Assembly: GCF_019972295.1 (NCBI RefSeq)
Contig: NZ_BLJA01000001.1
Location: 2,298,158-2,362,157 of the forward strand
Direction: 5' to 3'
DNA length: 64,000 nt
From: Geobacter sp. AOG2
GTDB taxonomy: Bacteria; Desulfobacterota; Desulfuromonadia; Geobacterales; Pseudopelobacteraceae
Shown here in pieces: positions 12,758 through 45,679 of the stretch (positions within the stretch are counted from its first letter, which is position 1; each line of letters starts with the position of its first letter). The translations under genes were made by a program, and so were the position numbers. The notes below the pieces were generated by a model that had not been told where the DNA came from, did not search any database, and saw nothing but the letters and a program-made list of their open reading frames with translations.

Positions 12758-13027
12758 GGTCTCATCTCCTGTTGAGGTAAGTCTCATCCTTGTTTGCCAG
12801 GACGGTGGACAGTATAGTATGGTGAAACCTCACCACGCAAGCCCACTTTTTCTCCGGCGGGGAAAACCAGCCGGAACGCCTTTGTTTTGACTCATGCACT
12901 CCAAGAAAGTCCTTCAGCAAAAAACGACTATTTTCTTTCATCTTAAGTCGTGGTAATTATAAAAGCTGCCAAGTTCGGCACTCACAAGTTAATAAAGAAA
13001 TTCAATATATATAAACAAAGGCCGCTA

Positions 13028-14512
13028 ATGGTCAGCCTCGTCATTATCTCCAACAGCCCAAAAACAGCACATATCAAGCAATATCTCCAAGCAACGATCA
13101 AGGTTACGGTCGACGTGGTGGCCGATATCGACCAAGCGCTGCAGGATATTTTCGTAAAACGTCCGACTGTCGTCTGCATCCAGAACCGACTCTCGGATAT
13201 CAATGCCGATGAAATTGCCCGGCATATCCAGATGCTGTTCAGAAAAGATGCGCCCTCCTTCATTCTGATGCACGAGGGGGACGACAACGCCAAACCGGTC
13301 GCCGGACTGTTCGAGCACCTGCTCGACCTGACACTGCCCGAGACGAAACTGGCCAAGACCCTTGGTGCCGCCCTCAAATCGATTCTCGGCACCCAGTGGG
13401 AAGACACCTGCTTGTCACCGCCCCCTCCTAAGGGCAAGCAGCCTCAAACAGCCGGTATCACACTGAATCGCCCCCGGGAATATTCCGCTGTCGAAGAACA
13501 TGACGCATTCGTACTCGTAAACTCGTTGGATGAATTCATGACAACCATGCCCGAGGCCCAGGTCAGGGGACTGGAGAACGGCGTTCACCCGGATCAAGAA
13601 CCGGCGGCTGCCTCCCCCGCCACGAAGCCTCTCGACACTGCCCCCCGCAAAAACACTCCGTCCCGACAATTACCCGTCGAACACGAGAAAACGGCCAAAC
13701 AGATGGGGCATGAAACCTCTTTTCCAGAAGAAACAGTGATTCCGTCCAGGACCATCGCGCCCTCACCCCCGCTTTCAGTGCGCCCAACTTCACCCCCCCT
13801 GCCGGCAGCCCCCCCACCCCCTGTGGCCAAGGCAGTACCACAAGACCATCGCCCAGTGTCGAAGCCTGCGGTTTCGCCCCCGTCTATCACAACGCCGCCG
13901 GGTGATTTCCGCATTACCGCGGCGGCTACAGCAGCAGCCGGGCGGGAACAGAGTGATATAGCCCCGTTCATTGAGAGCTTTGAACTGCCGGACAGGAGAT
14001 GGAGGCGCCGTGTGGGTATCGCCCTGGCCATGGCGACCTGTGCCGTTGCCTGGTATCTGCTGCGGCAGAAACCGGGGGCGGCAACGAAGCTGCAAAAGCC
14101 GGCGCCCGTCGCGGTAGCCATTCAAAAGACTGCTTCGAGCGTGCACCATCCCATCGGAAATACGGATGCCCCTCTGCCGGCATTTATTCCTGCTGATGGC
14201 CGTGACAACGTCTATACAGCCCGGCACCCGGGCTGGGAACGTTATGCGGGAGCAGATTACGAATGCCGGATATTCCGGGAAAACAACCGCATCAAGGCTG
14301 TCCAGGTGTTGCCGGCTAAACGGCAAAGCCTCGATGAGGAGTTTCTGAAAAAAGTGCTGACAGAACTGGTGGGCAACGACCATTTCCGGGTGACCTCACG
14401 GGAGAACGTACAGGATTACCTGATAGAGCGTGGCAGTGTGGCCGACAAGGCAGACCTGATGCTCTACATTCGAAAATCGAAATTGCACGCCTTTGTCGTA
14501 TCCCTGATTTAA
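13028..14512 (+). CDS. Pseudo-receiver / Pro-rich / single-span membrane protein, paralogue A
   Basis: A 494-residue protein I do not recognise. Residues 1-122 resemble a response-regulator receiver, but the acidic pair is replaced by SNS and the phospho-acceptor position by Gln (CIQNRL, 50-55). A long low-complexity linker rich in Pro, Ala and Ser spans about 130-320. One membrane span lies at about 329-346 (GIALAMATCAVAWYLL). The C-terminal domain (about 385-494) contains HPGWERY, RIKAVQVLPA and YIRKSKLHAFVVSL. A paralogue with the same order lies at 44540-45679. The start was set by that comparison and an AAAGG site. The N-terminus is likely cytoplasmic and the C-terminal domain periplasmic. 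The LysM and GspE-type genes follow. Confidence 0.85.
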   Translation: MVSLVIISNSPKTAHIKQYLQATIKVTVDVVADIDQALQDIFVKRPTVVCIQNRLSDINADEIARHIQMLFRKDAPSFILMHEGDDNAKPVAGLFEHLLDLTLPETKLAKTLGAALKSILGTQWEDTCLSPPPPKGKQPQTAGITLNRPREYSAVEEHDAFVLVNSLDEFMTTMPEAQVRGLENGVHPDQEPAAASPATKPLDTAPRKNTPSRQLPVEHEKTAKQMGHETSFPEETVIPSRTIAPSPPLSVRPTSPPLPAAPPPPVAKAVPQDHRPVSKPAVSPPSITTPPGDFRITAAATAAAGREQSDIAPFIESFELPDRRWRRRVGIALAMATCAVAWYLLRQKPGAATKLQKPAPVAVAIQKTASSVHHPIGNTDAPLPAFIPADGRDNVYTARHPGWERYAGADYECRIFRENNRIKAVQVLPAKRQSLDEEFLKKVLTELVGNDHFRVTSRENVQDYLIERGSVADKADLMLYIRKSKLHAFVVSLI

Positions 14513-14613: not shown

Positions 14614-16149
14614 ATGTTCTCATCATATGTCCGTACCACGCTGGTTTTCCTACTCATCATTGCCGCTTCGATAACCGCACAACCCTTGCACGCCGCCATG
14701 GACCCGCGTTTCGAACTGAGCCCCCAGACACTTGAGGCTACCACGACCCGCAAGCCTGCGGCCAAAAGCGGCAGGCATGCCGCCCGGCCACGCTCCCGCC
14801 AACTGCCGCAAAATGGCACAATCTATACCATAAAAGCCGGCGACAATCTTCACAAGGTCCTGGTACGACATTTCGGCATAAAAGATAATGAGACAGAAAC
14901 ACTGATCGAAAAAATCTGCCGCAAGAACAATATCAGGGATATCAGACGCCTGAAGGTCGGCCAACGTATAGTGATTCCTGCCTTTGACCGCAAGGCGGAA
15001 GGTGCGGCCACGGTGTACGAGACGGACAGGGTTGCTTCGGCCACACCCGACGTAGACGCGCCTGAAGCCACGGGGAGGGCATTTAGCCTGACGCCCCCCT
15101 CTGTGCCTGCACTTGATGGGCAGGAAACCCTTCGGCAGATCAAAAGTGTCTGGGATCGGGTCGTGCCCTCGAAGAGCGAGTTGAGCAAGCCGCTCACGCT
15201 TCATTCGCCCACATTCACCCTGACCCTCGATCCTCAGCGTTATCCCATGTACGCCACCATGGATGGCGGCCGGATCTTGGTGGACCGTAAAAAGACCATC
15301 CCTCCCCTGATCAAATCGCTGATTGAAGAAAAGGAGCCGTCGGTCCATATCGTATCCGAATCGCCGGCAGACACCAGGCAGCTTTTGGCCACCATGCTTG
15401 AAGCGGCCGGATTCTATTCGGTGGAGGAAAACTTCAACATGGAGTTCGGAGTCGACCCTAAGGTAACCGTCCACTCCGATTTCAAGATAGAAAAGGCGGC
15501 CGACAGCCTGGTCAATCAGGATGTCGTTTTGTTGAACAACGGACGGCAGCCCCTGCCAACCACCTTGCGGGGGGTGCTTAAAAAAGAAGGCTTTACGGTC
15601 TACGAACCGTTTGCCGCGCCCGGACCGCTCATCGTTCGCCCGGCCCGCAACATCGGACAGATAGGGATCTCCACTCAACCCAAAATGGTGGATGCCATCC
15701 TGGCGTCTTTGGCGGTATCACCCGAACGTGATCGATCCCTAGACGTCTTTGGGGCGGACGACAACGGCATCTCCCTTTCCGTCAGGGCCGACCGGTCATT
15801 CGTCCGCGGCGGACAAAAGTACGTCATCACCCGCTTTGACGGCGATGCGGTCACCTACACCCTCTTCCGTATCCTGGAAACCAAGGGGTATCGGGTCATT
15901 ACCCTCGACAGACAGGACGATTTCCGCAAGAGCACGGAAAAAATCCTCGCGGGAATGAAGATCCGGAACACCTATGGCCGACATGACCTGATCCGCGAGG
16001 AAGGACTCCCCTATTCGGTACAGATGTCGGGGTTCTGGTTGGACGACCCTTCCCTGCCCGGCGGCAGTCTGTTCCTTACCGATCTGGCCATTGACCAGGT
16101 CGTACGCAGCCTTCTGTTGGAAAACGGTTTCAACATTTACACAAAATAA
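14614..16149 (+). CDS. LysM-domain exported protein of unknown function
   Basis: A 511-residue protein with an N-terminal signal peptide (residues 1-28, core TLVFLLIIAASITA, cleavage near LHAAM). A LysM domain at about 69-128 begins YTIKAGDNLHKVLVRHFG and ends LKVGQRIVIP, implying binding to peptidoglycan. The remaining 380 residues match nothing I recognise; they contain several alpha/beta-like units and no membrane span. It starts 101 bases after the pseudo-receiver gene, and 14 bases separate its stop from the GspE-type ATPase, so the latter two are surely cotranscribed. A role as a cell-wall-associated part of a pilus or secretion machine is inference from context. Confidence 0.85.
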   Translation: MFSSYVRTTLVFLLIIAASITAQPLHAAMDPRFELSPQTLEATTTRKPAAKSGRHAARPRSRQLPQNGTIYTIKAGDNLHKVLVRHFGIKDNETETLIEKICRKNNIRDIRRLKVGQRIVIPAFDRKAEGAATVYETDRVASATPDVDAPEATGRAFSLTPPSVPALDGQETLRQIKSVWDRVVPSKSELSKPLTLHSPTFTLTLDPQRYPMYATMDGGRILVDRKKTIPPLIKSLIEEKEPSVHIVSESPADTRQLLATMLEAAGFYSVEENFNMEFGVDPKVTVHSDFKIEKAADSLVNQDVVLLNNGRQPLPTTLRGVLKKEGFTVYEPFAAPGPLIVRPARNIGQIGISTQPKMVDAILASLAVSPERDRSLDVFGADDNGISLSVRADRSFVRGGQKYVITRFDGDAVTYTLFRILETKGYRVITLDRQDDFRKSTEKILAGMKIRNTYGRHDLIREEGLPYSVQMSGFWLDDPSLPGGSLFLTDLAIDQVVRSLLLENGFNIYTK

Positions 16150-16163
16150 AGGTATACGAACGC

Positions 16164-18101
16164 ATGATCGTGAAAAAAGTTGGTGAAATATTAATCGAGC
16201 AGGAGCTGATTACCCAGGAGCAGCTCCAACAGGCGCTCGAACTGCAAAAAAACATTCCCGACCAGACGATCGGGCAACTGCTCTGCAAACTCGGATTCAT
16301 ACGGGAAAGCGACCTGCGTTTCGTGCTCGACCAGAAAAACAAGCGGCCGGAGCTGGTCGATATCCTCATGAGGGACGGCCTGCTGGATCAACCGAAGATA
16401 CGGCACGCCCGGGAGATCGGTAAACAACACAACATCCCTCTTGAGAAGGCGCTGATCAAGTTACGTTATATCGATGAAGAACAACTCGCCCAAGCGGTGG
16501 CAACACAATATGACCTGCCGTATGTCACCATAAACTGCCGGGATCTGGATGTGGTCCTCTCCCAGTACATCAGCGTCGTCTACGCCCAAAAACACCGCAT
16601 CGCTCCCATCTCCAAGATCGGCAATACACTGACACTGGCCATGAGCGCCCCCCTCAGGCAGATTGACATCAGGGAACTGGAAGACAGCATCCGCCTGAGG
16701 ATCATTGCCGTAATCGCCACTGAAAGTGATATCCGGGTGGCACACCAGCAACTTTACAACGTCGCAAACGCAGGAACAACGACCAGCGCCAGTGACGAGG
16801 TAAATCTGGACATCCTGCCGGACAGTATCGTCGATCTGCTCAGCAAGACATCCCTCGGCGACGAGCCCGACATAGAGGAAGAGACCAAAAAGGTCACAGA
16901 GAAGGATAGCGTCATCGTCAAACTGGTCAACAAGATCATCTACGACGCCTATGTCAAAAAAGCCTCCGACATCCACATCGAACCCTACCCCGGCAAAAAG
17001 GACGTCGTGGTACGCACCCGCATCGACGGCCAGTGTTCCATCTACCAGAAGATCCCATACAAATATAAGTTTGCAATCCCTTCCCGCCTCAAGATCATGG
17101 CCGACCTGGATATCGCAGAACGACGCAAGCCCCAGGACGGCAAGATCGAATTCAAAAAATTCGGACCGTTGGACATCGAACTGCGTGTGGCAACCATGCC
17201 GACGGTCGGCGGACTGGAAGACATTGTCATCCGTGTCTTGTCCAGCGGCGAACCGATCGGTTTCAAGGACTTGGGTCTGTCCGACCGAAACATGCATGTC
17301 TTCGAAGAGGCTCTCAAGAGTCCCCACGGCCTGGTCCTGGTCGTTGGCCCGACCGGTTCCGGCAAAACCACAACTCTGCATTCTGCCCTGGCCACGATCA
17401 ACCAGCCCACCCGCAAGATCTGGACGGCAGAGGACCCGGTGGAGATCACCCAGCCGGGCCTGCGTCAAGTGCAGGTAAATGCGCGCATCGGCTTCACTTT
17501 CGCCACCGCCCTGCGTTCATTCCTGCGGCTCGACCCGGATGTCATCATGGTCGGCGAGATGCGCGACGAGGAAACAGCTGGTATTGCCATTGAGGCCTCG
17601 CTGACCGGCCACCTGGTATTTTCAACGCTGCACACCAATTCAGCACCCGAGACGGTTACCCGACTTCTGGAAATGGGGCTCGATCCTTACGGCTTTTCTG
17701 ACTCACTGCTCTGCGTCCTGGCCCAACGACTGGCTCGTCGACTCTGCCCCGACTGCAAGGAGAGCTATCAGCCTACAGAACCCGAAATCGGTGAGTACAT
17801 CGACGAGTACGGTCAGGAGGATTTCACCCTGAGCGGCATAAAACGGGAGGGACTGACCCTCTATCGTGCAGTGGGTTGCGAACGCTGCGGGCACAGTGGT
17901 TATCGCGGGCGGCTCGGCATTCACGAGGTACTGGACTGCACCTCTCAGTTGAAGAGCCTGATCAAGCGCCGGGCGCATACGGATTCAATCTATGAGCAGG
18001 CGGTGACAGACGGCATGACCAGTCTCAAACAGGACGGCATCATAAAGGTGCTGCAGGGGCTGACCGACATCCACGAGGTGCGACGGGTTTGCATCAAATA
18101 G
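16164..18101 (+). CDS. GspE/PilB-type secretion or pilus assembly ATPase
   Basis: A 645-residue type II secretion / type IV pilus ATPase. The N-terminus holds GspE-N/MshEN-like repeats: VGEILIEQELITQEQLQQAL, IGQLLCKLGFIRESDL, and a second more divergent pair up to about residue 115. The ATPase core has Walker A GPTGSGKTTT (about 394-403), the Asp-box and Walker B region around RLDPDVIMVGEMRD, and the His box HTNSAP. Two CxxC pairs (CPDC, CERC) form the usual zinc element. The N-terminal repeats lack the Arg of the c-di-GMP-binding MshEN consensus. No other pilus or secretion gene is adjacent, so the system it powers is unknown. Confidence 0.9.
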   Translation: MIVKKVGEILIEQELITQEQLQQALELQKNIPDQTIGQLLCKLGFIRESDLRFVLDQKNKRPELVDILMRDGLLDQPKIRHAREIGKQHNIPLEKALIKLRYIDEEQLAQAVATQYDLPYVTINCRDLDVVLSQYISVVYAQKHRIAPISKIGNTLTLAMSAPLRQIDIRELEDSIRLRIIAVIATESDIRVAHQQLYNVANAGTTTSASDEVNLDILPDSIVDLLSKTSLGDEPDIEEETKKVTEKDSVIVKLVNKIIYDAYVKKASDIHIEPYPGKKDVVVRTRIDGQCSIYQKIPYKYKFAIPSRLKIMADLDIAERRKPQDGKIEFKKFGPLDIELRVATMPTVGGLEDIVIRVLSSGEPIGFKDLGLSDRNMHVFEEALKSPHGLVLVVGPTGSGKTTTLHSALATINQPTRKIWTAEDPVEITQPGLRQVQVNARIGFTFATALRSFLRLDPDVIMVGEMRDEETAGIAIEASLTGHLVFSTLHTNSAPETVTRLLEMGLDPYGFSDSLLCVLAQRLARRLCPDCKESYQPTEPEIGEYIDEYGQEDFTLSGIKREGLTLYRAVGCERCGHSGYRGRLGIHEVLDCTSQLKSLIKRRAHTDSIYEQAVTDGMTSLKQDGIIKVLQGLTDIHEVRRVCIK

Positions 18102-44539: not shown

Positions 44540-45679
44540 ATGCCAGATTTGCTATTCATATCCGATAACCCCAAACTGGAACAGGTCAAGGCCCTGCTTC
44601 AGCCGATGCTCAAACTTGAAATTGTCGCGACGGCAGACTACGAACGCGCCCTGAAGGACATCTCCGGCCATCTTCCCCCCGTCATCTGTATCCAGGATCG
44701 GTTGGCAGGGACAGAGGCCGGGGAGATTGCCGGACGGGTCCGGGCAATACCGGCAAGCAAGGAGCCCTTGTTTGTCCTTCTGCATGAGGGTGACAGCACC
44801 AACGTGCCGCCCGAACAGCCCTTTGGACATGTCATTGACCTGAACCAACCCGTGGAACAGATTGCCGAGATCATCCTCCACGTAGTTCTCCGGCCAGCCT
44901 TCCAGCTCCACTGGAACGAGATTTACATCCCTCATGGTTGGAACGAAATAGTAACGACTGTCCCCGGTCAGAAAGAGCCAGAGCCTGCCGAAGCAAACGC
45001 AACGCCACCCAAAGTCCAGATCCCGGCCGAGCTGTTGAAGGCGTTCGAACACAACTACCACTCCCGGCACCGCAACAGATGGATAAAATATGCTGCCGTC
45101 TCGCTGACGGCATGTCTGGCCGTTTTAGGCTGGTACGCAACCTCCGCCAGATACGAGCGAAGCGGCAGCGTCCCCCCAACAGCCCTGCCGCGCCCAGTGG
45201 TGCCGGTGCCGGTAGCCGCCCCGGCCCCGCAGTCCAAGAGAAGCATCCCCCCAACACCGGTACCTTCGGCGGCTGCTGTTGTCCAGAAGGCACCCTCGGC
45301 CGCGCACAAGCCCATCGCCAACAAAACAACGATTGCGAGGCTGCCGTCGTTTATCCCGGAAAGGGGTCGGGACAGCGCCTATTCCCGCCAGAAACCAGGT
45401 TGGGAGCGTTATACCAATACAAACTACGAGTTCCGCATCCTCAGGTCAGGCAGCCGCATCAAGGCTATCCAAGTACTGGCTGCCACACAACATGCCATCA
45501 GCGAGGCCTTTGTGAAATCTGTCCTTAATGAGCTTACCGGGAGCAGCACCTACCGGGAAACCTCACAGACGGAAGAGCAGGGATTTCTGATCAAGCGAGG
45601 CAGCGCAAGGGCCGGCGTAACCATTCTAATTTACACTCAAAAGTCCCGAATTAGGGCCTTTGTGATCTCTATCAGTTGA
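44540..45679 (+). CDS. Pseudo-receiver / Pro-rich / single-span membrane protein, paralogue B
   Basis: A 379-residue paralogue of the protein at 13028-14512. Residues 1-120 are receiver-like, with SDN at the acidic-pair position and CIQDRL (50-55) around the phospho-site, so the Asp is shifted by one. A membrane span lies at about 184-202, next a Pro/Ala/Val-rich linker to about 265. The C-terminal domain (about 270-379) shares FIPERGRDSAY, KPGWERY, RIKAIQVLA and IYTQKSRIRAFVISIS with paralogue A. The linker is on the other side of the membrane span compared with most of that in A. The start follows AGGGA, 49 bases after sucA. Confidence 0.85.
   Translation: MPDLLFISDNPKLEQVKALLQPMLKLEIVATADYERALKDISGHLPPVICIQDRLAGTEAGEIAGRVRAIPASKEPLFVLLHEGDSTNVPPEQPFGHVIDLNQPVEQIAEIILHVVLRPAFQLHWNEIYIPHGWNEIVTTVPGQKEPEPAEANATPPKVQIPAELLKAFEHNYHSRHRNRWIKYAAVSLTACLAVLGWYATSARYERSGSVPPTALPRPVVPVPVAAPAPQSKRSIPPTPVPSAAAVVQKAPSAAHKPIANKTTIARLPSFIPERGRDSAYSRQKPGWERYTNTNYEFRILRSGSRIKAIQVLAATQHAISEAFVKSVLNELTGSSTYRETSQTEEQGFLIKRGSARAGVTILIYTQKSRIRAFVISIS

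Follow-up and report, generated by a model that had tools for sequence, protein, structure and literature searches.

A 64,000-nucleotide stretch of Geobacter sp. AOG2 DNA (the window) encodes two members, P0001 and P0002, of an undescribed protein family that is nearly confined to Geobacterales. By profile comparison, the N-terminal domain of the family is a degenerate receiver; a single membrane span separates it from a C-terminal domain that is itself undescribed, without a Pfam or NCBIfam family. P0001 is encoded first in a three-gene unit, followed by a periplasmic LysM protein and a GspE/PilB-type ATPase. We tentatively propose that the family members are envelope-anchored bitopic inner-membrane adaptors that fix a cytoplasmic machine, in the case of P0001 an orphan GspE-type ATPase, at a cell-wall site.

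P0001 (494 aa) is encoded at 13028..14512 and P0002 (379 aa) at 44540..45679, directly 3' of the 2-oxoglutarate dehydrogenase E1 gene (sucA); coordinates without a prefix are those of the window, and all features placed by them lie on its + strand. The start Met of P0001 is the same as in most orthologues, which give no support to an upstream GTG at 12950 as the start. BLASTP aligned the two proteins in two separate blocks, one N-terminal (residues 1-130, 34% identity, E 2e-21) and one C-terminal (residues 358-493, 139 aa aligned, 47% identity, E 5e-39). Homology at both ends had been claimed in the sequence-only reading on the strength of shared motifs, and CIQ(N/D)RL, FIP, PGWERY, RIKA(V/I)QVL and a hydrophobic C terminus are indeed present in both proteins. 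A likeness carried by the low-complexity linker alone, one of the two outcomes that the sequence-only reading had named as refuting it, was ruled out, since the end blocks align separately and linker matches stay at chance level. Neither protein matched any Pfam family. A third paralogue is found in the same genome ~0.94 Mb away (G000:C1:3255143-3256531); in the family tree, P0001 and P0002 are sisters (SH-aLRT 84, not starred) in one clade, and the third copy falls in another.

The pseudo-receiver occupies residues 1-122 of P0001 (13028..13393) and 44540..44905 in P0002. When a profile of 77 family N termini was compared with a profile of 34 receivers taken from non-family proteins, the two matched with a probability of 89% (hhalign, E 2.2e-6, 71 columns); in controls, 20 column-permuted profiles gave at most 3% and a reversed profile 0.2%. 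A receiver profile that included family members inflated the support and was replaced by this one, which is free of them. A smaller profile, built from 11 close sequences only, gave no receiver match. Pfam Response_reg matched 3 of 27 relatives (best E-value 1.4e-4) and was the sole Pfam family to appear among them with any weight. The earlier reading that neither protein has an intact phospho-acceptor pocket holds well beyond the pair: of 77 aligned members, 76 have Gln in place of the phospho-acceptor Asp, P0001 and P0002 (Gln52 in each) among them. Such a fixed Gln at the acceptor site suggests selection rather than decay.

A Pro-rich low-complexity linker of little conservation, predicted to be cytoplasmic, follows in P0001 (13394..14011) and leads, through RRWRRR, into the membrane span (residues 329-345, VGIALAMATCAVAWYLL, 14012..14062); alignment places the span of P0002 at residues 184-200 (45089..45139). 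At 17 residues, both segments are just under the 19-residue threshold used for transmembrane calls. The single span proposed from the sequence is borne out by the relatives, 36 of 38 of which have one transmembrane segment at the homologous place. By the positive-inside rule, P0001 is predicted to be oriented N-in, with its C-terminal domain in the periplasm.

That domain covers residues 383-494 of P0001 (14174..14509), as judged from the alignment and an AlphaFold model, and residues 268-379 of P0002 (45341..45676), as judged from BLASTP and the alignment. D, PGW, RY, Q, Y and V are invariant in the final alignment. The AlphaFold model (pLDDT 91.9, pTM 0.83) consists of strands, one helix and four strands. 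The domain matched no Pfam, NCBIfam or PDB family; a match to a characterised family, the other refuting outcome named in the sequence-only reading, thus did not turn up. The layout, for which that reading knew of no described family, is still without one. Foldseek returned nothing at E <=0.001 among solved structures. In a second structural comparison the best matches were small domains such as YjgB, YpeB, YycH/YycI, PsbP and CAP-associated SAV1118, all of them weak (Z <=6.4, identity ~10% or less; YycI 2o3o, Z 5.3 over 85 residues), and these values may reflect no more than a common arrangement. No GspL-type structure was among the matches; such a likeness may still be present.

Both end domains are kept in 82 of 83 collected full-length family proteins, a collection that includes a few near-duplicate loci from the same organism. 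The C-terminal domain was found in 122 of the 277 genomes of the class, all but one of them in Geobacterales, and an even draw of 395 genomes across the phylum yielded eight genomes with the domain, again all in Geobacterales. When 27 relatives were searched against NCBIfam, only scattered sub-threshold matches appeared; those to GspB-like and GltJ-like models were judged to be driven by the linker. Five distinct members are giants of 1000-1634 aa (giant forms were noted at loci L074, L075 and L107-L111). They keep the dead receiver and the C-terminal domain; one to three intact receivers, accompanied in some giants by a long coiled coil, are inserted after the dead receiver and ahead of the membrane span. 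The sequence-only reading had suggested independence from phosphorylation. This is not universal, as the subclade with the inserted receivers shows. ParA-family genes lie beside all four giant-form loci checked, and hybrid kinases beside both of the two checked. The end domains are constant and a LysM neighbour recurs in many copies; what varies is the middle of the protein and whether GspE or ParA is the cytoplasmic neighbour. Such a pattern would suit a platform that is anchored in the envelope and serves different machines.

In most relatives within the taxonomic family of the window's genome, the gene order is sucA, the family gene, LysM protein, GspE ATPase, rimP, nusA, ylxR, infB, rbfA. 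In the window this row is split in two: the P0001-LysM-GspE trio occupies 13.0-18.1 kb, and sucA lies with P0002 at 41.7-45.7 kb. The split, together with the sister relationship in the tree, is best explained by a duplication within the genus and relocation of the trio, P0002 being the duplicate of P0001 that remained beside sucA. Among the 150 family matches listed, at least 78 have a LysM gene within 2.5 kb downstream, which makes the LysM protein a more constant companion of the family than GspE. A LysM gene is directly upstream of the GspE orthologue in at least 72 of the 76 cases listed (median gap 99.5 bp), and the triad is intact in at least 49 genomes among the matches listed. A LysM neighbour is absent at P0002 and at the giant forms, and clade B copies often have other LysM proteins and a TPR/DUF11 protein as neighbours. 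Next to the third copy (L006:3934-8029) are a LysM-TPR protein and a TPR/DUF11 protein of 1084 aa, a neighbourhood that recurs across Geobacterales. The stretch downstream of P0002 (45992-50979) encodes cytochrome P460, a hybrid histidine kinase and receiver proteins. Two other genomes of the genus (L122, L123) retain this gene order in part.

Two genomes of the same genus, G002 and G005, both rated complete, keep P0002 and lack the LysM protein and the ATPase. Between the homologues of ispE and the agmatine-deiminase gene, these genomes have 257-259 bp, where the window and G003 have 5.4 kb; G002 and G005 lack exactly the P0001-LysM-GspE trio as a block, with the flanking genes intact. Membership of P0002 in the ATPase unit was ruled out, since both sister genomes retain it without LysM or GspE. 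In an outlier outside Geobacterales, G187, the family gene, LysM and GspE are contiguous (G187:C3:51220-54980, L112). The likely cause is joint transfer of the three genes, or contamination. Conserved co-occurrence with the ATPase had been named in the sequence-only reading as support for a joint system. For P0001, the co-occurrence and the absence of the trio as a block agree with this; as a general rule it fails, because GspE does not adjoin P0002, the third copy or most Geobacteraceae copies. Synteny and co-loss show that the trio is linked, not that its products are in contact. A literature search on this gene set returned nothing relevant.

The LysM partner (14614..16149, 511 aa) begins 101 bp after P0001 and was assigned by a Pfam LysM match (E 7.9e-6) and by co-occurrence; it has a signal peptide, called by eye and hydropathy, a LysM domain and a conserved C-terminal part. 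Its whole model has a pLDDT of 73.6. Within it, residues 353-451 (15670..15966) adopt a predicted PD-(D/E)XK/Vsr-like fold (VIA-align against 3r3p: Z 10.9, rmsd 2.4, 85 aligned), which is odd in a periplasmic protein with a signal peptide and LysM. That the partner is an active nuclease was thought unlikely: its catalytic residues are apparently lost, the catalytic Glu expected before the conserved Asp-Gly being variable in the sequences.

The ATPase (16164..18101, 645 aa) was assigned by Pfam T2SSE (E 2.9e-120) and by its motifs; the Walker and related motifs are intact, with GPTGSGKTTT, GEMRD and STLHTN present and conserved. MshEN ATPases bind c-di-GMP through tandem 24-residue motifs (PMC5013675). 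A relaxed form of this motif gave no match in 28 of 32 sequences, the window ATPase included, and with the motifs degenerate, c-di-GMP control of the window ATPase was judged unlikely. The genome encodes six GspE/PilB ATPases and three GspF/PilC proteins. None of the GspF/PilC genes is near the window ATPase, which is therefore an orphan, and pilin, secretin and GspF genes are absent from the cassette. Two more GspE/PilB-type ATPases without an adjacent GspF/PilC are encoded at G000:C1:1073176-1074336 and 1087971-1089104. A second ATPase type of ~770-800 aa, which shares close to 70% identity with residues 220-645 of the window ATPase, is widespread in the class (e.g., G009:C1:32536-33810); at the threshold used it was not found in the window's genome. 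One GspE orthologue (G042:C38:84250-86160) contains an in-frame TAG and is possibly a pseudogene or a sequence error.

How might these parts work together? According to the adaptor reading, which we prefer but hold only tentatively, the periplasmic C-terminal domain would bind the LysM protein, the LysM protein would fix the pair to peptidoglycan, and the pseudo-receiver with its linker would keep a cytoplasmic machine at this peptidoglycan-fixed place. The cargo of P0001 would be the orphan GspE-type ATPase encoded with it; lacking a GspF/PilC gene of its own, this ATPase would need a pilus or secretion machine that is already in place to act on. Cargo would differ among the other copies, and for the giant forms next to parA genes it may be a ParA system controlled by phosphorelay. 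We consider doubtful the further-reaching proposal of a compact envelope module that uses none of the known components of pili or secretion systems. In such a module, the dead receiver, fused to a new periplasmic domain, would place and gate an orphan GspE-type motor where LysM is anchored to peptidoglycan, and some lineages would have regained phosphorelay control through inserted live receivers. The family links one of the three GspE/PilB ATPases of this genome that have no neighbouring GspF/PilC gene with a candidate envelope anchor, and so opens the role of this ATPase to testing.

Three other explanations must be weighed against the adaptor. Instead, the periplasmic domain and its LysM partner could sense the state of the cell wall, and the pseudo-receiver could relay the signal to a kinase or regulator that it binds, in the manner of YycH/YycI and WalK. 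In favour of a sensor, the weak structural matches of the C-terminal domain include YycI and WalK-YycH, hybrid kinase and receiver genes lie downstream of P0002, and hybrid kinases adjoin the giant forms. However, the YycI and WalK-YycH matches have Z ~5, below the level called meaningful, the common forms have no conserved kinase neighbour, and a sensor leaves the linkage to the ATPase unexplained; we regard it as rather unlikely. P0001, bitopic like GspL and sharing an operon with a GspE-type ATPase whose catalytic motifs are intact, could also serve as docking subunit, in place of GspL or PilM/N for this ATPase, in a T2SS/T4P-like system that is complete but has its genes scattered. Three GspF/PilC genes do lie elsewhere in the genome, but no GspL, GspB or pilus domain was found in P0001 or P0002, many family copies are without any GspE, and the cassette holds no pilin, secretin or GspF, which leaves this reading less probable than the sensor. 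We give least credence to the view that the trio are neighbours through shared transcription alone, and that the family does housekeeping work in the envelope that has nothing to do with the ATPase. The relatives' cassette does sit between sucA and the rimP-nusA-infB housekeeping genes, and GspE is absent from most clade B copies; against this, the trio is missing as a block in two genomes, is contiguous in the outlier G187 and was relocated as a unit in the window's genus.

If the family members are adaptors, they would work like the FimV/HubP landmarks or the GspL/GspB docking proteins, to which they are not homologous. FimV, HubP and TspA are envelope-spanning inner-membrane polar landmarks that have a periplasmic LysM and a cytoplasmic docking part and are tied to type IV pilus machines (PMC12918733). 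By analogy, the family would likewise pair a LysM function in the periplasm with a cytoplasmic docking part, but here LysM is on a separate soluble protein and none is found in the P0001 or P0002 chains, a pseudo-receiver rather than TPR/FimV would lie in the cytoplasm, the chain order is reversed and the C-terminal domain is unique. No TPR or FimV domain was matched in 27 family members (Pfam, NCBIfam). FimV/HubP landmarks are also tied to ParA-type ATPases. The docking proteins GspL and PilM-PilN recruit the GspE/PilB-type ATPase of T2SS and T4P to the membrane. P0001, bitopic and a putative recruiter of such an ATPase, would resemble them; in contrast to them, it has no detected GspL domain and its cassette is without GspF, pilin and secretin genes. 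The GspB/OutB scaffold is an inner-membrane protein whose periplasmic part links the machine to the cell wall (PMC9239104), an arrangement that the predicted periplasmic part and putative cell-wall link of the family may parallel. Neither a GspL nor a GspB domain was matched in P0001 or P0002 (Pfam) or in P0001 (NCBIfam), and one relative matched GspB at E 0.0099. FrzS and NblR are pseudo-receivers, with a receiver fold and no working phospho-acceptor pocket. The family would share this kind of domain, as judged from its sequences, but couples it to a span and to a domain predicted to be periplasmic, and shows a uniform Asp-to-Gln replacement family-wide. With a dead receiver kept under a fixed substitution and one branch adding live receivers, the family offers a natural experiment in phosphorelay loss and regain.
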